From: Paraburkholderia sp. HP33-1
Lineage (GTDB): Bacteria > Pseudomonadota > Gammaproteobacteria > Burkholderiales > Burkholderiaceae
Assembly (NCBI RefSeq): GCF_021390595.1
Contig: NZ_JAJEJR010000001.1
Span: forward strand, 372,001 to 436,000
DNA length: 64,000 bases
Reading direction: 5' to 3'
The notes beneath the pieces are model-generated. The model did not search any database. It saw only the letters and a program-made list of their open reading frames with translations, and was not told where the DNA came from. The translations under genes were made by a program, and so were the position numbers. Positions 53,302 to 62,243 of this stretch are shown here, piece by piece (within the stretch, counting starts at the first letter, position 1; the number at the start of each line of letters is the position of its first letter).

Positions 53302-53835
53302 ATGGCATCCGTGAACAAGGTCATTCTGGTCGGCAACCTCGGAGCCGATCCGGAAGTCCGCTATCTTCCGAGCGGCGACGCAGTGGCGAACATCCGCCTT
53401 GCGACAACGGACCGCTACAAGGACAAGGCGTCGGGCGAGATGAAGGAAGCCACAGAGTGGCACCGCGTCGCGTTCTTCGGCCGCCTCGCGGAAATCGTGT
53501 CGGAATATCTGAAGAAGGGCTCGTCGGTGTACCTCGAAGGGCGCATCCGCACGCGCAAGTGGCAGGCGCAGGACGGCACCGATCGTTACTCGACCGAGAT
53601 CGTCGCGGAGCAGATGCAGATGCTCGGCGGCCGTGGCGGCGCGTCGATGGGTGGCGGCGATGAAGGCGGATATAGCCGCGGCGAGCCGTCGGAGCGCAGC
53701 GGCGGCGGCGGTGGTGGTCGCGCGATGTCGTCAGGCGGCGGCTCGCGTGGCGGCAGCGGCGGTGGCGGCGCGAGCCGTCCGAGCGCGCCGGCTGGCGGCG
53801 GGTTCGATGAAATGGATGACGATATTCCGTTCTGA
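53302..53835 (+). CDS. ssb: Single-stranded DNA-binding protein
   Basis: Coats ssDNA in replication, repair and recombination. The 177-residue protein has the OB fold ([20 protein letters not shown], then [22 protein letters not shown]), a Gly/Ser/Arg-rich linker (about 110-165) and the acidic interaction tail DEMDDDIPF, intact to the stop codon. A strong GGAGAAACTC precedes the start. The foreign island begins just downstream, so the insertion did not disrupt the gene. Confidence 0.96.
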
Positions 53836-53862
53836 GGTCTACCTTTTTCAAAATGTAATTAA

Positions 53863-53897
53863 GAAGCCTGTAACCCTTGTGGTTGCAGGCTTTTTTC
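53863..53897 (+). terminator. Rho-independent terminator after ssb, at the left edge of the island
   Basis: Stem aagcctgtaacc / ggttgcaggctt (one G-U wobble) with a 4-5 nt loop and a T-run. It ends ssb transcription and means that the downstream recombinase operon needs its own promoter. It also excludes the first codons of the long open frame starting at 53877 as a real start. Confidence 0.9.
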
Positions 53898-53898
53898 T

Positions 53899-53914
53899 TA
53901 TTTGCATTTTTCGG
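53899..53914 (+). repeat. Candidate left attachment-site repeat (attL)
   Basis: TATTTGCATTTTTCGG, which matches 14 of 16 bases with TATTTGCGTTTTTAGG at 62160-62175 in the same orientation. The pair brackets the whole low-GC six-gene block. A weak promoter-like pair overlaps it (TTTGCA at 53901 and TACTGT at 53924, 17-bp spacing). Confidence 0.45.
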
Positions 53915-53950: not shown

Positions 53951-53963
53951 GGAAACGTCAATA

Positions 53964-55250
53964 GTGAGCGTCCGGTATGCCGTCAGAATGCAGGTGTTCG
54001 CATCGGGTGAGCGGTTCCCTCTGCTCATTGACGTTCGGACAGGCATCCCTGTATTTGACGTCACGGCGTTCACATTAAGCGAATTCCGGCAGGTCAGCCG
54101 TGCCAGCGCGACGCTGGAGCAGGTCGTGCGCTCCTGCAAGGTCTGGCTGCTTTTCGGCGACGACCACGGCGTCGACCTGTATGCACGAATGCGTGAGGGC
54201 CTTTTCCTCACCATGGGGGAACTCGATGCGCTCATCGAGATGTGCAATGAGCCGCTTGAGGCCATTGAATCCCGCGTCTGCGCTGCGCTCCCACGGTCGG
54301 CTCCGCAAAGTCGCAAGGTGACCTCGCTCGAGGCTCACCGCGCCCGTGCAAGCGCACAGCCCCAATCTGTTATCAATCGGGACTCCGCAGGCATTCGTAT
54401 TCGCTACATCCACAAGTTTCTGGAGTGGCTTTCGAACAGGCATCATCTTGCGGTTACTGGCTCGCATTCTCCGCGACCGGCCTTTCTCTCTGCTCGCGAC
54501 ACCGTTCTTTCCGCAATGAAGGCTCGCATCCCGGATGGCCGGGGACGGAACGCTCAGGGCGGTCGTCTCGCTCTCTTGCCGGACATACAGGACCGGCTCT
54601 GGGAAGTCGTCGTTACCGGCTCGCCGGAAAATCCTTGGACGCGCCACGAAACTCAGGTGCGAAACGAACTGATTATTCGCTGGTTTATGGGATTGGGACT
54701 GCGTCCGGGTGAACTGCGCGGTGCCCGGGTGCAGGACGTTGACCTCCGAAAGAATGAATTATTTATCGCCCGGCGTGCCGATGACATCGAGGACCCCCGG
54801 GCTGCGGAGCCGAACACAAAAACAAACGACCGCCTTGTGCCGCTTTCCGTAGAACAGGCCAGGTTGACTCGCCACTACATCTTCGATGTGCGCCGCAACT
54901 ACCCTAAGGCAAGAAAGCATCCGTTCCTGTTTGTGGCGACGGGCGGAGAGCCGCTCTCCAAATCTGGGCTTTACAGGATATTCGTGGTGTTGTGCGAACG
55001 GCACCCAGAACTCGGACCCATCTTCCCTTATCTCTTGCGTCATACATGGAACGACAACTTCTCGAACGAAGTGGACGAAAAGAAGATTCCACCGGAACGT
55101 GAGCAGAAGGTGCGTGCAAAACTGATGGGGTGGAAGCCGACCTCAAAGACCGCCTCGACGTACGACAAGCGCCACACGGACCGAGAGGCACGTGCGGTAT
55201 CACTGAGCCTGCAGGAGAAGATGGAGCTACCAGCTGATGCCGAAGACTGA
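53964..55250 (+). CDS. Tyrosine recombinase 1 of the island (TnpA/GmtY-like, 428 aa)
   Basis: Site-specific DNA recombinase. The N-terminal SAM-like core-binding region (about 130-200: IRYIHKFLEWLSNRHHLAVT) is followed by the catalytic domain with Arg 247 in LGLRPGELRGARVQDVDL, the box II pair Arg 359-His 360 in YLLRHTWNDNFS (the usual leading His is Tyr), Trp in MGWKPTSKTASTY, and the nucleophile Tyr 400. I chose GTG 53964 with a GGGA upstream; ATG 53988 is also possible, whereas the frame start at 53877 lies inside the ssb terminator. Its 3' end overlaps the next gene by 14 bp. Base composition is clearly lower in GC than ssb. Confidence 0.85.
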   Translation: MSVRYAVRMQVFASGERFPLLIDVRTGIPVFDVTAFTLSEFRQVSRASATLEQVVRSCKVWLLFGDDHGVDLYARMREGLFLTMGELDALIEMCNEPLEAIESRVCAALPRSAPQSRKVTSLEAHRARASAQPQSVINRDSAGIRIRYIHKFLEWLSNRHHLAVTGSHSPRPAFLSARDTVLSAMKARIPDGRGRNAQGGRLALLPDIQDRLWEVVVTGSPENPWTRHETQVRNELIIRWFMGLGLRPGELRGARVQDVDLRKNELFIARRADDIEDPRAAEPNTKTNDRLVPLSVEQARLTRHYIFDVRRNYPKARKHPFLFVATGGEPLSKSGLYRIFVVLCERHPELGPIFPYLLRHTWNDNFSNEVDEKKIPPEREQKVRAKLMGWKPTSKTASTYDKRHTDREARAVSLSLQEKMELPADAED

Positions 55251-56862
55251 ATCAGCAAGTAACGCGGTCGAACCTTATGTTGGCTATGTTCCCGAATTCG
55301 TGACGACGCGTGCTGGTGCCACATTCGAGACTCGCCATGACGTCTGGGAGGTTCGTGAGGCTGCGTTGAGAGTTCGTTTGGCATTTAACAAGCTCCCCCA
55401 GTTGTCTGTTCCGTTCAAGGCTGCTTTCCAATGCGCGCTCATCTGGTATGCAAGGAATTCCTCGCTTTGCCACTTCCACAATATGTTCCAGAGGGCCAGA
55501 AACCTGCTGGATGCAAAGTTTGCCGCGACTGGTACGCTCATCAGCAAGGTAACCTCAGTTGATATTCTCAACTATCGCTCAAGCTTGAGTCACGAAGACG
55601 AATATAAGCTTGGTGCCGTGTCAGGGTTCCTCATTAAATGGCACGAATTGGGACTCTGGGGAATCTCGGACGATGCGGTTGGCCTACTCCTGGAGATGCG
55701 GCTGACGGGAAACGCCAAGGGTGTCGACGTCCTGACTCAGGACGTAGCGAAGGGCCCCTTCACTAACTTGGAACTAGAGGCGTTGCAGCAGGCCTTGAAT
55801 CAAGCATATGGGAAAAAGCTTGTTACGGAGGGGGAATTTGCCCTGTGCTGGTTGTTCATGGCGCTGGGTCAAAGAGCAGTGCAGTACTCGTATCTGAAAG
55901 CGTGCGACGTGAAGGAAAAGGTCCGAGAGGACGGCGTCATCAGCTATCAGTTGCGTATTCCTCGGGCAAAAAACCGTACGGACAAGCCCCGTATCGAATT
56001 CACTGAACGTGAACTGACACCGCAGCTCGGAAGGCATCTCGCTCGGTACGCCAAGCGGGTCAAAGAAGCGTTTGTGGGTCGAATCGAAAATGCGGACGAG
56101 GCTCCGCTGTTTCCTTCTGACGCTGTTGGCGACGCGCCCGCCGGATTTGAGTTTCACCAGACCTCCGAAGAAATTGCCGAGGCGATGGTTCGCGTAATGA
56201 GCAGCCTGGGCGTCATCTCCGAACGGACCGGCGACTACGCGAAAATCGGTGCCAAGCGTTTCCGTCACACGATTGGAACACGAGCCGCGCAGGAGGGGCA
56301 TTCCGAGCGTGTCATTGCCGCGCTACTGGACCATATCGATACACAGCATGTCGGCGTCTACGTAAAAGCTACCCCTGCTATTGTCAAACGTATTGACAAG
56401 GCTATGGCGATGACAATGGCGCCCTATGCCCAGGCGTTCGCGGGAAAGCTCATCGCCGGACCTTCCTATGCGACCCGTGCGTTCGACCCCGCGAGCGATA
56501 TAAGGGCGCCCCAAATGCTTGCATCCTTCGACGGCATGTCCAGCTGCGGGAAATATGGCTTCTGCGGCTTCTCCAAGCCCATTGCCTGCTATACCTGCGA
56601 GAGCTTTGAGCCCTGGTTGGACGGGCCACACGAGCTGGTCCTGGACTTCATGCTCTCTGACCGCGAACGGAAGATGAAGACCTGTGACCCACGCATCGCA
56701 TCAATCAACGACCGGACCATCTTTGCGATAGCGGAGGTCATCCAGTTGTGTGCAGCGGTACGGGCCGAGAGCGACGTCGCCGGTAGCGGCGATGCCACCA
56801 TTGGTTTCGACTTTACTGACGCCAACGACAGCAGCAAGGACCCGGAAGATGCCGATGACTGA
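55237..56862 (+). CDS. Tyrosine recombinase 2 of the island (541 aa) with C-terminal Cys cluster
   Basis: The second recombinase. Catalytic residues: Arg 213 in ALGQRAVQYSYLK, Arg 343-His 344 in GAKRFRHTIGTRAAQ, His in ALLDHIDTQHV, and nucleophile Tyr 375 in VGVYVK. After the catalytic domain is a zinc-ribbon-like cluster C437-x5-C443-x7-C451-x2-C454, in SCGKYGFCGFS and ACYTCESFEPW, typical of the large recombinases of multi-recombinase elements. The ATG overlaps the preceding gene by 14 bp, so translation is coupled. Codon use is less GC-biased than in flanking genes. Confidence 0.85.
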   Translation: MPKTESASNAVEPYVGYVPEFVTTRAGATFETRHDVWEVREAALRVRLAFNKLPQLSVPFKAAFQCALIWYARNSSLCHFHNMFQRARNLLDAKFAATGTLISKVTSVDILNYRSSLSHEDEYKLGAVSGFLIKWHELGLWGISDDAVGLLLEMRLTGNAKGVDVLTQDVAKGPFTNLELEALQQALNQAYGKKLVTEGEFALCWLFMALGQRAVQYSYLKACDVKEKVREDGVISYQLRIPRAKNRTDKPRIEFTERELTPQLGRHLARYAKRVKEAFVGRIENADEAPLFPSDAVGDAPAGFEFHQTSEEIAEAMVRVMSSLGVISERTGDYAKIGAKRFRHTIGTRAAQEGHSERVIAALLDHIDTQHVGVYVKATPAIVKRIDKAMAMTMAPYAQAFAGKLIAGPSYATRAFDPASDIRAPQMLASFDGMSSCGKYGFCGFSKPIACYTCESFEPWLDGPHELVLDFMLSDRERKMKTCDPRIASINDRTIFAIAEVIQLCAAVRAESDVAGSGDATIGFDFTDANDSSKDPEDADD

Positions 56863-58906
56863 AATCATCACGTTCGTACCTCGGGCCGAGCTCGATGCCC
56901 AGCAGAACCTCGATGCCTTCGTGGACGCCTGTCGCAGCCAGCTGACGATATTCGGCGCCAACCTCGACTTCGAGGCGAATAAGTGGGTCACTGGCATTGA
57001 GCTGAAGGGCAAATACCACCCGTTGAGGCTTACTTATAGCAATCTCGAAACCTGCAAGAAGCGAGAGCTTGTCATGATGGAGGAGCCCTTCCGCACCTTT
57101 AGCAAAGCCTTCATGCGCTATCAGCAGGGCGTGCGACCGACCAAGGCGGTGGGAAACCGTTTGGCCGCGTTGCGCGTTATTGAAGCGGCACTCGTTGAAA
57201 CAGGGATGGCCAATCCACTGGCGATTGATGCAGATGTCCTTAACCGGGCCGCGCAGCTGGCCCAAGCCCGGTTTGCTCCGGCCAACGCCTATCGAGTTGG
57301 TACGCAGATTGAGATGGTAGGGACGTTCCTGACCAGTAAGCGGCTGACCGTAGGTCTTTCCACCTGGCACAATCCAATCAAACGCCCTGGCGAAAGCGAC
57401 AACAAGGTGGGAGAGGACGCGGACGCGATTCGCATTAGCAAGTTGCCCTCGCCAGCGGCCCTTGACGCACTGCCCCAGGCGTTCCGTTTGGCACGCAAAC
57501 CCGCAGATGTGCTCGTTTCGTCGGTGACTGCCATCTTTGTTTCCGCCCCTGACCGTATAAGCGAGGTGCTACTCCTTGCGGAAAACTGCGAGCACACTGA
57601 GCCCGATGAAGATGGCACGCTCCGGTATGGCCTTCGTTGGTTTCCGGCGAAGGGCGCGGAGCCGATGATTAAGTGGATTGTGCCGTCGATGGTCGACGTG
57701 GTTAAGGAAGCTATTGCCAGGATTCGGAAGCTCACCGCTGAGGCGCGCAAGGTTGCTCGCTGGTACGAGACACATCCTGGAAAAATCTACCTCGCCACCG
57801 ACGAACTCAAGAAATTGAGGCGCAAAAAATGGCTGACGGCGCAAGAGGTCGGCGATATTCTGTTTGCTTGCCCCGCCGGCACCAACGCAGTTCGCACTTG
57901 GTGCAAGGCAAACGGCGTGCCATTTCAGGAGGGGCAACCCCAGAAGCACTGGGTCCGGTTAGAAGATTTGCAGTCTGCGGTGCTAAGGCAGCTGCCACCC
58001 GGCTTCCCAGTAATGAACAAGGCACTCGGTCTGAAATACAGCGAGGCGCTGTGCGTTTTGCAACGAAATGCACTGGCTACAAAACAACGTCGGTCCAACT
58101 GCCTTATCGACCCTATAGGCCAGAACATCATACACAACCGCCTCGGTTCGCGGTCGACGACCGGCGTCGAATCTGTCTTCGACAGTTGCGGACTCTTCGA
58201 GCAGGACGGTAGTCCCATCCGCGTCCATTCACACCAGTTCCGGCACTACGTTGATACCTTGGCGCAGATGGGTGGCATGAGCCAGCTGGACATTGCCAAG
58301 TGGGCGGGCCGGAAAGACGTCCGGCAGAACGAAGTTTACGACCACGAATCGACGCAAGCGCTTCTGAAGCAGGCACGCGAAATCGTTGGTAATAGTAAGC
58401 GCATGTCGGGGCCGGTCGTTGCTTCGGCGCGAAGGGTGCTCATTGAGCGTAACGCCTTCGGAAACCTCAAGATACCCACAGCTCATACGACAGATTTCGG
58501 CTACTGCGTCCATGACTTCGTCATGACACCATGCCCGATTCACGGGGACTGCGCGAACTGTGATGAGCAGGTATGCATCAAAGGCGACCTGGAGAGCGAA
58601 ACTCGGATACGGCAATCGTTCTCGGAAGCGACCCGGCTTCTCGATGACGCGGAGCGGGCAGCGGCAGATGGCGATTATGGCGCGGCGGAATGGGTAAAAC
58701 ATCATCGTGCGGTCCATTCGAAGCTGGCGGCGCTGGTCGCGGTTCTGGACAATCCACTGGTGCCGGTCGGAGCGGTTATCCGGTCGACGCCGGAGGGAGT
58801 GGCATCTTGGCTTGAGCGTGCTCAGGAGACGCGAGACCAGGCGCAGGCTTTGGATGACACGCCTCTTGCGTTGAGCAACACCCCGAGCGCTGAGGTGGAG
58901 CAATGA
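56849..58906 (+). CDS. Tyrosine recombinase 3 of the island (TnpB/GmtZ-like, 685 aa)
   Basis: The largest recombinase. It has a long N-terminal DNA-binding part, then Arg 236 in SAPDRISEVLLL, an insertion of about 200 residues, His 462-x-x-Arg 465-His 466 in HSHQFRHYVDTLAQ, Trp/Gly in AKWAGRKDVRQ, and nucleophile Tyr 497 in NEVYDH. A C-terminal cysteine cluster follows (C553, C562, C568, C571, C576; CPIHGDCANCDEQVC). The start at 56849 is supported by AAGGA 8 bases upstream and overlaps gene 2 by 14 bp. The size and insertion recall TnpB of Tn554 and GmtZ, by memory only. Confidence 0.84.
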   Translation: MPMTEIITFVPRAELDAQQNLDAFVDACRSQLTIFGANLDFEANKWVTGIELKGKYHPLRLTYSNLETCKKRELVMMEEPFRTFSKAFMRYQQGVRPTKAVGNRLAALRVIEAALVETGMANPLAIDADVLNRAAQLAQARFAPANAYRVGTQIEMVGTFLTSKRLTVGLSTWHNPIKRPGESDNKVGEDADAIRISKLPSPAALDALPQAFRLARKPADVLVSSVTAIFVSAPDRISEVLLLAENCEHTEPDEDGTLRYGLRWFPAKGAEPMIKWIVPSMVDVVKEAIARIRKLTAEARKVARWYETHPGKIYLATDELKKLRRKKWLTAQEVGDILFACPAGTNAVRTWCKANGVPFQEGQPQKHWVRLEDLQSAVLRQLPPGFPVMNKALGLKYSEALCVLQRNALATKQRRSNCLIDPIGQNIIHNRLGSRSTTGVESVFDSCGLFEQDGSPIRVHSHQFRHYVDTLAQMGGMSQLDIAKWAGRKDVRQNEVYDHESTQALLKQAREIVGNSKRMSGPVVASARRVLIERNAFGNLKIPTAHTTDFGYCVHDFVMTPCPIHGDCANCDEQVCIKGDLESETRIRQSFSEATRLLDDAERAAADGDYGAAEWVKHHRAVHSKLAALVAVLDNPLVPVGAVIRSTPEGVASWLERAQETRDQAQALDDTPLALSNTPSAEVEQ

Positions 58907-59370
58907 AGCGTACGAGGATGCCAAACCTTGATGACGCTGCTATCGGGCGGATTGTGCAAATCCTCGATGGCTGGAGCGGCAAGCTCACTTGGCAGCTTCT
59001 CATCGATGCAATCCAGCACCGTTCGAAACAACGATATACGCGACAGGCGTTGTACTCTCACGAGCGGATTCGCCAAGCGTATGGGGGGCGAAAAAAGGCG
59101 CTGTCCACCGACAAGCCTGCAATGGGCGTGTTTGATGGACCACCTGAGCTCAAGATAGCGCTCGATGAGGTTGCGCGACTGACTGCCGCGAATGAGCGCC
59201 TTGAAAACGAAAACAACCGGCTTCTCGAACAGTTCGTGCGGTGGACGTACAACGCGAGCAAGAAGAACCTGACTGAGGAACTGCTCAACCGGCCATTGCC
59301 ACCGGTGGACCGGGAGCGCAGCGATGCACCCCGTAGAGGCGGGCGTGCTCAACCAGTAAAGCGGGGCTAG
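58903..59370 (+). CDS. Small basic coiled-coil protein of the island (TnpC/GmtX-like, 155 aa)
   Basis: A 155-residue, mostly basic protein. Residues about 15-65 look like a helical DNA-binding domain (LTWQLLIDAIQHRSKQRYTR QALYSH). Residues about 84-112 form a leucine-zipper-like coiled coil (LDEVARLTAANERLENENNR LL). The tail is Pro/Arg-rich. It overlaps recombinase 3 by an ATGA. Small coiled-coil partners directly after the large recombinase are known in Tn554 (TnpC) and gamma-mobile-trio islands (GmtX), where they assist or orient integration. Assignment here is by position and shape. Confidence 0.6.
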   Translation: MKRTRMPNLDDAAIGRIVQILDGWSGKLTWQLLIDAIQHRSKQRYTRQALYSHERIRQAYGGRKKALSTDKPAMGVFDGPPELKIALDEVARLTAANERLENENNRLLEQFVRWTYNASKKNLTEELLNRPLPPVDRERSDAPRRGGRAQPVKRG

Positions 59371-59372
59371 CC

Positions 59373-59810
59373 ATGCCTAGTGGACAACAGCTCTCGGAAC
59401 AGAACCTGACGACATTCACCGTGTGGCTCGCCAGCAAGACCGATGCAGAGTTCCGTGCCATGGTTAGCCGGGGTGTCCTATCGCGGAAAGAAATTGCGAA
59501 GGAATGCGGTTTCGCACAATCCGCGCTCAATCAGAATCCGCGCATCAAGGCCGCGCTCAAGGCCAAGGAGGACGAGCTCCGGGAAAGCGGGATATTGCCT
59601 GCTCTTGCGGACGAAGGGTCCGCGGGCGCTGCCGGATTGCCTATGCGCAAGCCTGACACGTCACGTGCTGCTGTAAGCGCCGAACATGTCAGGCGGTTGG
59701 AGTCAGACCTCGCCGCAGCTCGCGCAGAGCTCAGCGAGGTCAAGCGCAAGCTTGAACGCTATGAACTGCTCGACGAAGCGCTGGCGACGACGGGGAGGTT
59801 GCTGCGTTGA
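59373..59810 (+). CDS. Small helix-turn-helix/coiled-coil protein of the island (VPA1267-like, 145 aa)
   Basis: A 145-residue protein with a helix-turn-helix-like segment (VLSRKEIAKECGFAQSALNQ, about 33-55), an Ala/Gly-rich linker, and a C-terminal coiled coil (VRRLESDLAAARAELSEVKR KL, about 105-128). It resembles, from memory, the VPA1267 family that follows gmtX in Vibrio islands. It starts 2 bp after the previous stop and overlaps the helicase gene (TTGA), so it belongs to the same operon. Role unknown; DNA binding is likely. Confidence 0.6.
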   Translation: MPSGQQLSEQNLTTFTVWLASKTDAEFRAMVSRGVLSRKEIAKECGFAQSALNQNPRIKAALKAKEDELRESGILPALADEGSAGAAGLPMRKPDTSRAAVSAEHVRRLESDLAAARAELSEVKRKLERYELLDEALATTGRLLR

Positions 59811-62095
59811 CCACTTCGCAATTACTGCGAGTCACCTCTGTGCGCAGCCGGGGCATTCGTGGCATCGGAGGATGTATCTTCTCGGGCGCACCTATCAGCT
59901 CAAGCGGCGAGACGCTCGACGCAGGCGCTTACCTCGTCGTGCGCGCCTCCTTCTCCATGATTGGTAACAATCGTGTTGAGGTGGGCCAGTGGTGGCATGT
60001 GACCGGCGAGTGCCGCAGCCGGACTAGCAACATGAACGGCTATGCACTTACGGAACTGCAGATTGAGGCGTCCGAGCTTGAGTTTCGACTCCCGTCTGGT
60101 GAGCACATCATTACGTTGATGGCTGAAAGCGATGAGTTCCGGAGTATCGGCTACGTGAAGGCGCGCACGCTCTGGGAGACGTTTGGCCAGCGGCTGTACG
60201 GCCTGCTTGATGAGGGGGACGTCGAGTCACTTTCCGCCGTGCTCGCTCCAGACATTGCGCAAATCGCAGTCACCGCGTGGGCGACACTTGGCGATACGCG
60301 AAACCTTCAATGGCTTCAGGGCAAAGGGTTCGAGACACAGGTCGGCCGCAAGTTGCTGAAATTCTTCGGTACCGACACAGCTGCAAAGATTGCAGAAGAC
60401 CCTTACCGCCTCGTTAGCTTCTGCGGTACATGGAAGGCCGCTGATGCGTTTGCCCGTTCCAGGTTCAATATCGGAATTGACGACCACCGACGGTTGCGCG
60501 GTGCGGTCGAGGAAGCGCTGTATCGCATCTTCGCTTCCGGACACACCTGCGCTTCGCGCGCCATGCTCATTGAGCGGCTCGTTGGCGTTCTTGGTCCCCA
60601 GACCCCGAAGTTCCGCTGGCGTTCGCTCATCGACGCATCGCTCGACCAAGGACTTTGGAACGGCAGCTACGTAGTCGGAGCAGATGACACGATTCACCCG
60701 ACCGGGCCGCTAGTCATGGAAACAGCGGTTGCGTCTGCTATCGCTGGACGCATCTTGGACACCAGTGTCGCACCGCTCGTCGACGACCACGAACTTCCGG
60801 TGCTCATTAAGCGATACGAATCGGCCGAAGGCATCTCCCTGAACGACGAGCAGCGGGAAGCGATACGAATCGCTGCAACTGAGACATTCGCTGTCATCAC
60901 CGGCGGCGCAGGTGTTGGCAAAACCACGGTGCTCAAGGCGGTGTACCCGCTGTTCGACCGGGCTGGAATCCGCATCTGCCAGATGGCGCTGGCTGGCCTC
61001 GCTGCCAAAAGGATGCAGGAGGCTACCAGTCGCGCAGCATCGACGATTGCCGGATTCCTCAAGAACGTTTCGCGCGAAGACCTGGACAGCCCGACTGTGG
61101 TCGTTGTCGATGAAGCGAGCATGATTGACATCATTACGATGTACCGTCTTTGTAGCGTCCTGCCCAGGCATGTCCGATTGCTTCTCATCGGTGACCCGTC
61201 GCAGTTGATGCCTGTGGGGCCCGGGCTCGTATTGCATGCGCTGGTGGGTCTGCCGCAGGTCGCCTCTTCTGAGCTGAAGGTCGTCAAGCGATATGGTGGC
61301 GAAATTGCTCAGGCGGCACTCTCTATCCGCAATGGCATCTGGCCAACGTTGGCAACTGACAGCACCTCGCCCATTGCCATGGTGGAGTGCCGGAACACCT
61401 CTTACGACGGGGATAACAGCCTGGCTGCAATCGTCTTGCGTTTGTACCGCACAGACCCGGAAAACACCCAGATACTGTGTTCGCGACGCAGTGGCGCAGA
61501 TGGAACTCGATGGTTGAATTCGCTTTGCCAGAAAGCTTTGGCGGACGATTCTCCAATGCTTGCGTGGAGTGGCGAACATGAGTCGTTTGCCCATACCGGT
61601 TTCAGGTTGGGTGATGCAATCCTTTGCACGAGAAACCTGTGGAGCTATGGTCTCCAGAATGGCTCTCTCGGACGCGTTGTTCAGGTCGATGACGCGCCTC
61701 GGGCGCCGGACGACGACGAAACGGACGAGGCGCGTCCGGTACTTGGGTGGATTTTATGGGACGACGGCGAACGTCGCCCGGTCCACGAGGAAATGCTTGA
61801 CGACCTCGAGCTGGGATACGCAATTACGGTTCACAAGGCGCAAGGTTCGCAGTGGCCTCGCGTGATTGTTCCCGTTACCGGAAACCGTCTGATGGACCGG
61901 ACGCTGCTTTACACCGCCGTCACCCGGGCCCAGCAACAGGTCATTCTGGTTGGAAGCGCCGAGGCCGCCAAGGCTGCGGTAGAGGCTCTACCAAAAGCAC
62001 ATCTGCGACAGGTCGGATTGACGGCGCTCCTCCTGGGGCACCTTCAGTCACCGTCCTTGCAGCTAGTGAAGTGTCAACAACGGTTCCCGTCGTAA
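59807..62095 (+). CDS. RecD2-like superfamily 1B DNA helicase of the island (762 aa)
   Basis: A DNA helicase with all main SF1 motifs: Walker A GGAGVGKTTV (about 366), Walker B VVVDEASMID (about 434), motif III LLLIGDPSQLMPVG (about 461), and the C-terminal UvrD-like TVHKAQGSQWPRV (about 675) and LLYTAVTRAQ. The first 110 residues look like an OB-type domain and the next 200 contain helix-hairpin-helix-like repeats, as in stand-alone RecD2. The start is TTG 59807, overlapping the previous stop, so it is translated with the recombinase operon. It could process integration or replication intermediates, or be a passenger. Same low-GC composition as the recombinases. Confidence 0.82.
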   Translation: MTTSQLLRVTSVRSRGIRGIGGCIFSGAPISSSGETLDAGAYLVVRASFSMIGNNRVEVGQWWHVTGECRSRTSNMNGYALTELQIEASELEFRLPSGEHIITLMAESDEFRSIGYVKARTLWETFGQRLYGLLDEGDVESLSAVLAPDIAQIAVTAWATLGDTRNLQWLQGKGFETQVGRKLLKFFGTDTAAKIAEDPYRLVSFCGTWKAADAFARSRFNIGIDDHRRLRGAVEEALYRIFASGHTCASRAMLIERLVGVLGPQTPKFRWRSLIDASLDQGLWNGSYVVGADDTIHPTGPLVMETAVASAIAGRILDTSVAPLVDDHELPVLIKRYESAEGISLNDEQREAIRIAATETFAVITGGAGVGKTTVLKAVYPLFDRAGIRICQMALAGLAAKRMQEATSRAASTIAGFLKNVSREDLDSPTVVVVDEASMIDIITMYRLCSVLPRHVRLLLIGDPSQLMPVGPGLVLHALVGLPQVASSELKVVKRYGGEIAQAALSIRNGIWPTLATDSTSPIAMVECRNTSYDGDNSLAAIVLRLYRTDPENTQILCSRRSGADGTRWLNSLCQKALADDSPMLAWSGEHESFAHTGFRLGDAILCTRNLWSYGLQNGSLGRVVQVDDAPRAPDDDETDEARPVLGWILWDDGERRPVHEEMLDDLELGYAITVHKAQGSQWPRVIVPVTGNRLMDRTLLYTAVTRAQQQVILVGSAEAAKAAVEALPKAHLRQVGLTALLLGHLQSPSLQLVKCQQRFPS

Positions 62096-62159
62096 CCATT
62101 TATTGACATCGGTGTAGAGTCCTCCGCCGGAAACGGCTTCACTCACTCACATCCAAGGC

Positions 62160-62175
62160 TATTTGCGTTTTTAGG
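62160..62175 (+). repeat. Candidate right attachment-site repeat (attR)
   Basis: TATTTGCGTTTTTAGG, 14 of 16 identical to the left copy at 53899-53914. Directly after it are three TAACCA copies (62176-62181, 62182-62187, 62191-62196), and a fourth overlaps the helicase stop codon (62093-62098). These may be accessory binding sites. Confidence 0.45.
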
Positions 62176-62243
62176 TAACCATAACCATTCTAACCACCCG
62201 GCTCAATACCGACCCGACCAGCTTCCCGCTGATCGACACATCA

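Follow-up and report, generated by a model that had tools for sequence, protein, structure and literature searches.

Why would three dissimilar tyrosine recombinases, two small coiled-coil proteins and a RecD2-like helicase be packed into one operon directly behind ssb? The question is raised by a locus of Paraburkholderia sp. HP33-1, in a stretch of 64,000 nt (NZ_JAJEJR010000001.1, 372,001-436,000, forward strand), hereafter the window, whose coordinates are used throughout. Six reading frames of the plus strand (R1, R2, R3, S4, S5 and H6) are open from 53964 to 62095, with overlaps of 14, 14, 4, -2 and 4 bp, and their G+C content (58.7, 55.8, 58.1, 57.7, 60.5 and 58.9% in this order, hence 55.8-60.5%) is lower than that of ssb (67.0%), the whole window having 63.1%. 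The original prediction, which described genes, sizes, overlaps and composition correctly, took them for an expanded mobile element with kinship to Tn554-type elements, RIT elements and Gamma-Mobile-Trio (GMT) islands, those of GmtY, GmtZ and GmtX. Our results suggest another division of the operon. By their sequence, genes 1 to 4 are ginABCD, the operon that defines GInts (Bardaji 2017), and S5-H6 is a portable two-gene cassette that has been exchanged between GInts and GMT islands. With a probability of roughly 0.64, we read the element as a small and seemingly intact GInt whose insertion point is the stop codon of ssb, jointly with a mechanism in which S5, a ten-base box near the right end and the helicase would act together.

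The element and its ends

According to the parts of the GInt description covered here (PMC5385486), all four genes of ginABCD are essential for integration and for excision, which yields a circle; the targets include 3' ends of ssb; a cargo of 2.5-70 kb comes after ginD; and the elements have imperfect direct repeats of 10-17 nt, a short AT-rich 3' end, and right ends termed poorly conserved. Some give circles without a detectable empty site, according to the same text, and a synthetic minimal GInt integrates and excises with only ginABCD and the ends. The covered part of another study places GInts also in E. coli defence islands, under the name of Tn6571-family transposon (PMC10121019). The window element resembles them in its operon of three integrases and one small protein, in that order, in its target at the end of ssb, beside which its genes start, and in its short imperfect repeats; the ginABCD assignment was made from gene order, size and homologous operons, the published layout being compared by description and not by aligned proteins. 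Operons homologous to this one also stand immediately after ssb in Janthinobacterium (L006), Roseateles (L005), an epsilonproteobacterial metagenome-assembled genome (L007, where the operon is cut off inside R3) and further genomes of the window's genus. Because genes 1 to 4 and the ssb target are those of published GInts, and thus known biology, the idea of an expanded element was largely known already: the element is mobile and the helicase belongs to the mobile unit, as predicted, but the third recombinase is no expansion. What the published descriptions lack, within the text covered, are genes 5 and 6, and the window element differs from them by this six-gene core and by its right-end box. 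No description of the S5-H6 pair in GInts was found in the literature searched, which did not include the GInt supplementary tables, where it may be listed as cargo; nor was the name VPA1267, that of the S5 family, found there, the GMT paper, where both VPA1267 and the helicase may have been reported for those islands, being outside the search.

We find it barely credible that the element belongs to the GMT, Tn554 or RIT family. VPA1267 and RecD-like genes are indeed common to GMT islands, but four genes of the window match ginABCD in order and size, and the models of GmtY, GmtZ and GmtX (NF040693, NF047926, NF040692), which do match other loci, had no match in the six window proteins at E<=1. 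GMT membership was rejected on this ground; the GMT recombinase set differs from that of the window, and the kinship once proposed reduces to a shared cassette. RIT elements, in the part of the source covered, have three similar recombinases of 315-410 residues and 34-bp terminal inverted repeats (PMC10214605), so that RIT membership was rejected on the sizes found here (428, 541 and 685 residues), inverted repeats not having been specifically searched. The SE operon intA-tfp-intB-srap, described in the covered part of that paper as putatively non-mobilizable, is similar in combining several recombinases with a coiled-coil auxiliary protein, but clustering separated SE from GInt proteins (PMC10214605).

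The element exceeds the six-gene span, its ends falling at about 53827 and 62193, with 8,358 bp from core start to core start (53827-53835 to 62185-62193; Table 1). The two cores share 7/9 nucleotides, a direct repeat slightly below the published length range; a like core, CCGTTCTA, bounds both copies of a relative in genome G773, and the GInt in pTROUS1 has the exact core CCGTTC. Iterons of 12 bases accompany the cores, and in element E1 of genome G019, whose GinC is 55% identical to that of the window, they stand at +23, +72, +124 and -25, with an additional one (L055:19489) that is missing from the window. The 3' end is short: beyond H6 the element continues for about 100 nt. A search for other right ends with an iteron-plus-core expression returned only the window, L055 and L003, and a second expression had no matches. 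In the Janthinobacterium GInt the right end was not located, and no box was present in the 49 kb after ginD.

Table 1. Positions of the element's genes, target and end sequences in the window
Feature	Position	Strand	Basis or remark
ssb, target gene	53302..53835	+	last codons and stop form the left attachment core
Left core attL CCGTTCTGA, includes ssb stop	53827..53835	+	imperfect direct repeat of right core
Arm-like iteron RAAAYGYMAWTA, +23 from left core	53850..53861	+	same spacing in G019 element E1
Terminator-like hairpin, just inside element after ssb stop	53861..53895	+	hairpin search; similar ones by eye at other left ends
Arm-like iteron, +72 from left core	53899..53910	-	
Arm-like iteron, +125 from left core	53952..53963	+	abuts ginA start
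R1, ginA-type tyrosine recombinase, 428 aa	53964..55250	+	Phage_integrase match, E 1.2e-12
R2, ginB-type tyrosine recombinase, 541 aa	55237..56862	+	NCBIfam NF041502 'site-specific integrase', 534.7 bits, cut-off 350
R3, ginC-type recombinase, 685 aa	56849..58906	+	fold match, conserved residues
S4, ginD-type small coiled-coil protein, 155 aa	58903..59370	+	position as in published ginABCD
S5, VPA1267-family protein, 145 aa	59373..59810	+	172.7 bits, cut-off 90
H6, RecD2-like SF1B helicase, 762 aa	59807..62095	+	domains, motifs, profile score
Right-end box ACTCACTCAC, ten bases	62141..62150	+	common to other cassette-bearing GInt and GMT elements
Arm-like iteron, 25 nt before right core	62160..62171	-	
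Right core attR CCATTCTAA	62185..62193	+	

Empty ssb sites were found in four of seven opened relatives (G030, G032, G017 and G012; loci L058, L059, L065 and L070), with ssb and short intergenic DNA followed by the same downstream gene as in the window. In one of these sites (L059, G032), GATGTAAAG stands 3' of ssb where the iteron of the element would be, possibly the scar of a lost GInt. The window insertion retains the C-terminal DIPF-stop of SSB; it would thus preserve the SSB tail and, through the hairpin, give ssb a terminator. Hairpins are not clearly enriched across the region (13 found vs 8.6 expected). The tail can also be altered by insertion, since the plasmid ssb that reads past DIPF in the empty plasmid (L242) is trimmed to DIPF-stop by the GInt of pTROUS1 (L071).

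The definable ends, and the fact that only S5-H6 (about 2.7 kb) follows ginD, agree with the prediction of a mobile element without other cargo. Relatives point the same way. Genome G773 has two six-gene copies (L232 and L233) that are 99.988% identical over 8,402 bp, with one mismatch, one behind ssb and the other at the end of another gene, which now reads ...MVDIPF-stop; the exact block that they share has CCGTTCTA at both ends. The six genes and their ends have thus travelled together without cargo, although one element may instead have been acquired twice. Genome G019 (L055/L056) has two different six-gene GInts in tandem behind one ssb, and immediately 3' of the second the DNA is similar to the left end found in a third type (that of L067), possibly a relic. 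Among ten cassette-bearing GInts opened in the window's genus, found through S5 or GinC and not by a survey of all its GInts, nine have the box at most 300 nt from the H6 stop, and are therefore read as lacking cargo (the window, G019-E1, G019-E2, L227, where the box lies inside the end of the H6 frame, L232, L233, L234, L238 and L239); the tenth, L062, has about 1 kb. These elements thus have hardly any cargo, unlike published GInts. The genus also has GInts that lack the cassette, in G002 and G023. Such an unusual lack of cargo could suggest a dead or decaying island in which six genes were frozen, yet this is improbable, given that all six reading frames and both ends are intact in the window and that G773 has near-identical, recent copies of a relative.

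The S5-H6 cassette and the right-end box

The profile of the S5 family (VPA1267, NF040697), which had been suggested as a check and scores S5 well above its cut-off, gave 12 matches in 398 genomes of the phylum. Ten were strong, including the window, and the two weak ones (G608, G613) were left out. H6 lies directly 3' of S5 in nine of the ten strong loci and beyond a 1.4-kb gap in the tenth (G590); in the loci of the window's genus it follows S5 in 15/15, in pieces in one. All ten adjoin recombinase operons: seven GInt, two GMT-like and one other. The seven cassettes come after ginABC, and the ginD profile found no ginD in two of them (G677, G684). The sizes of their genes place G663 and G607 among the GMT-like loci, and G663 also matches GmtY weakly, under the cut-off; the remaining locus (G405, L091) encodes a 607-aa protein, a 650-aa integrase, a helix-turn-helix (HTH) protein of 360 aa, VPA1267, a RecD2-like helicase and another integrase. 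A tRNA target, suggested by tRNA-like sequence seen by eye at the right ends of G663 and G607, was dropped since ARAGORN found no tRNA gene in L089 and L159. The ssb profile found no ssb beside the GMT loci on which it was run.

The 2.6-kb DNA of S5-H6 is 88-93% identical between GInts (L074, L088) and GMT islands (L073, L075), and 81-83% identical to that of L089. The shared block begins at the S5 start codon and stops within about 40 bases of the H6 stop, whereas the neighbouring gin genes (L088, L074) and gmt genes (L073, L075) are not similar in DNA. Between L088 and L073 the H6 proteins are 94% identical; with the window, L088 has 32% identity in H6 and 19% in GinC. The cassette has therefore been exchanged between the two systems. 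The same cassette was present in the GMT islands that we opened, either complete, disrupted or with a part missing. On plasmids the GMT order is gmtY-GmtZ-gmtX-VPA1267-helicase, and four loci of the window's genus have the inverted order, with S5-H6 before the gmt genes (L228, L231 and L237, recognised by the GmtY/GmtZ models, and L236, by sizes only).

Many cassette-bearing elements carry the box near their right end. In 26 cassette loci (1.03 Mb) it occupies 12 gene-strand sites in 11 loci, against 0.57 expected from dinucleotide content, and is absent from the opposite strand, where 0.61 are expected; in 21 GInt loci without cassette the gene strand has none and the opposite strand one. The difference (11/26 vs 0/21) has a Fisher p of 4.6e-4, or of 1.8e-3 (box in 9/24) when the half-cassette loci L147 and L153 are removed. 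A test set was drawn from 144 genomes of the window's genus, 16 of which have S5; 15 further loci were opened (the fragment matches G010, G714 and G746 were not), and the box occurred in 8/15, or 7/14 counting L232/L233 once, with none on the opposite strand. All six GInt-type loci of this set have it, two of them being those copies in one genome. Several GMT loci have the same box as the window element, and in GMT-like G663 a variant that differs by one base, ACTCACTCAT, lies 6.4 kb beyond H6. A longer right-end pattern occurred in three of the 144 genomes, all with S5, of which two were previously known. Publications containing the box string, among the matches listed, seemed unrelated judging by title and abstract start. 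The cassette-less GInt of pTROUS1 served as a control, with junctions exact relative to an empty Pseudomonas putida plasmid and the core at the ssb end and at L071:16227: its right end (310 nt) has iterons, seen by eye, and no exact or one-mismatch box. Two distant cassette-bearing GInts (L096 and L095, in G352 and G370) also have neither in the downstream 67 kb, and their end signal may differ.

A possible helicase-loading role

Our interpretation is that, when the element is mobilised, S5 attaches to the box and brings the helicase onto the DNA. GinA, GinB and GinC, with GinD, would bring the ends together in a synapse and carry out strand exchange at the core; S5, HTH-like, coiled-coil and weakly GinD-like, would recognise the box and load the RecD2-like helicase there; and the helicase would unwind from the right end and assist in resolving the element or copying it out, for which other GInts would depend on host factors. 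We tentatively propose, as one possibility, that S5-H6 and the box make up an autonomous booster of mobility, in which a portable cassette loads the helicase at a right-end signal of its own, can be interchanged between multi-recombinase systems and drives right-end unwinding and copy-out (replicative) circularisation. If true, the cassette would account for a step not yet explained in GInts, SEs or Tn554. The question of mobilisation becomes directly testable through a helicase cassette that has a conserved end signal and passes between recombinase systems by which defence and resistance genes are spread; box, iteron and core together also give a sequence signal for locating right ends.

A number of observations weigh against this interpretation, and the first concern the cassette itself. 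Among the 21 genomes of the 398-genome draw that have R1-R2-R3 (G196, with R3 only, was left out), the cassette is present in seven and missing from 14. The helicase, for which a part in the integration machinery had been suggested, is thus no obligatory component of the recombination machinery; the pair is not essential for GInts, since two thirds of those in the draw lack it and the minimal GInt works without it. Behind ssb in G379 (L137) stands a GInt without S5 in which a more distant RecD-like gene (152 bits) lies 2.3 kb past ginD; its association with a helicase may be a diverged or a different one. L088 and L073 share a further 112-nt stretch (77%) downstream of H6. Nor is the pair always whole. 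Of 45 records that match S5, eight plasmid loci were opened: H6 is complete in L073, L075 and L150, falls into two frames near its end in L074, runs over the record start in L152, is interrupted by insertion sequences in L151 and L154, and is missing from L153, where S5 is shortened too. A Salmonella IncC plasmid (one of 26 such records opened) has a lone H6-like gene beside mer genes, with no S5 or recombinase annotated near it. In this plasmid (L147) the match starts at residue 95 and a box lies downstream, so that the gene is probably the remnant of a GMT island.

Such observations raise the question of whether S5-H6, perhaps a pair for defence or anti-defence, is simply cargo whose place directly after ginD is accidental. 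Defence genes can be part of GInts and are reported from GMT islands, the PADLOC models of RecD-like proteins score 147-168 bits on H6, most GInts of the draw lack the pair, and the published minimal GInt works without it. We nevertheless think this rather unlikely, given that the pair stands beside recombinase operons in all ten strong loci, occurs in nine of ten opened genus elements without other cargo (found through S5 or GinC), is linked to a DNA box at the right end, and in GMT loci may precede or follow the gmt genes yet is always adjacent to them.

The other points concern the sites. The box was found post hoc by comparing right ends, then tested once; it is missing in 7/15 of the test set and in 15 of the 26 loci of the first set; several of these 15 run off the contig or the fetched stretch, but G590, G370, G352 and P. 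caribensis lack it over about 50-68 kb examined. The loci share ancestry, so the counts are not independent, and some of the 21 control GInts have little downstream DNA (about 1 kb in G668; the contig ends in G373). The only cassette-less right end mapped, that of pTROUS1, has a two-mismatch partial match on the minus strand, ACTCACTAAA, within about 5 nt of the core. As for the insertion site, three of the seven relatives (L060, L061 and L066) show the downstream gene with ssb missing from the fetched stretch, and were not used.

The box could thus belong to the recombinases, as an arm site of certain GInt and GMT lineages, its link to S5-H6 reflecting shared ancestry. Both box and GInt lineage are conserved within the genus, the flanks of the box are similar within the GInt group and within the GMT group, and the inverted partial match near the pTROUS1 core fits this explanation, which we regard as possible but doubtful. 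The identical ten bases occur in GInt and GMT ends despite different flanks; the recombinases of the two systems are unmatched by each other's models (GmtY/Z/X on the window; R2 and R3 profiles on GMT loci), R1 and GmtY matching weakly (20-30 bits); and the mapped cassette-less end has iterons without an exact box.

The six proteins

The prediction of a RecD2-like helicase and of three genes of tyrosine-recombinase type agrees with our results. H6 has the domains HHH_RecD2, AAA_30 and UvrD_C_2 and carries Walker A, Walker B, GDPSQL and VTRAQ motifs. Its nearest solved sequence relative is RecD2 (PDB 3e1s, 3gp8 and 3gpl, the first being closest), over residues 165-746. Unlike RecD2, it sits in a mobile operon, and its 345.9 bits against the RecD2 equivalog TIGR01448 are under the cut-off of 500, for which reason it was rejected as a true RecD2. 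S5 is predicted to have a helical, HTH-like N-terminal part and a long C-terminal helix; Foldseek gave weak matches only, mostly HTH regulators with E of at least 1.8. S4 and S5 may be distantly related: their family profiles match (94% probability, E 1.2e-7), but the single S4 sequence had no significant match to the S5 profile, and the kinship is therefore graded as weak. GinD resembles TnpC of Tn554, according to the part of the GInt description covered (PMC5385486).

R1 is recognised by Phage_integrase and R2 by NF041502, and longer starts are also possible for R1 and R3. The motifs RPGEL/LLRH/TYDK in R1, GQRA/RFRH/LDH/VYVK in R2 and PDR/K268/HQFRH/GRKD/VYDH in R3 presumably have the catalytic roles known from the tyrosine-recombinase family. 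R3 had no significant match in Pfam; the top fold matches of its AlphaFold2 model (36 sequences, mean pLDDT 76.4) are XerH, Cre and other tyrosine recombinases, with a best E of 1.3e-3. Published GinC proteins, in the parts of the two sources covered, reportedly lack the first Arg (Bardaji, PMC5385486) or the catalytic motif and Tyr (PMC10214605). Contrary to this non-catalytic view, the GinC lineage of the window keeps R236, K268, R465 and Y497, invariant in 18/18 aligned homologues and 36/36 sequences, all picked by similarity to the window's GinC, and may therefore be catalytic. The geometry of the active site is not established, because the model is poor around Y497 (residues 491-510 and 512-574 have pLDDT <50). 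A C-terminal Cys4 motif (C553, C562, C568 and C571) is likewise invariant in the 18 aligned homologues.

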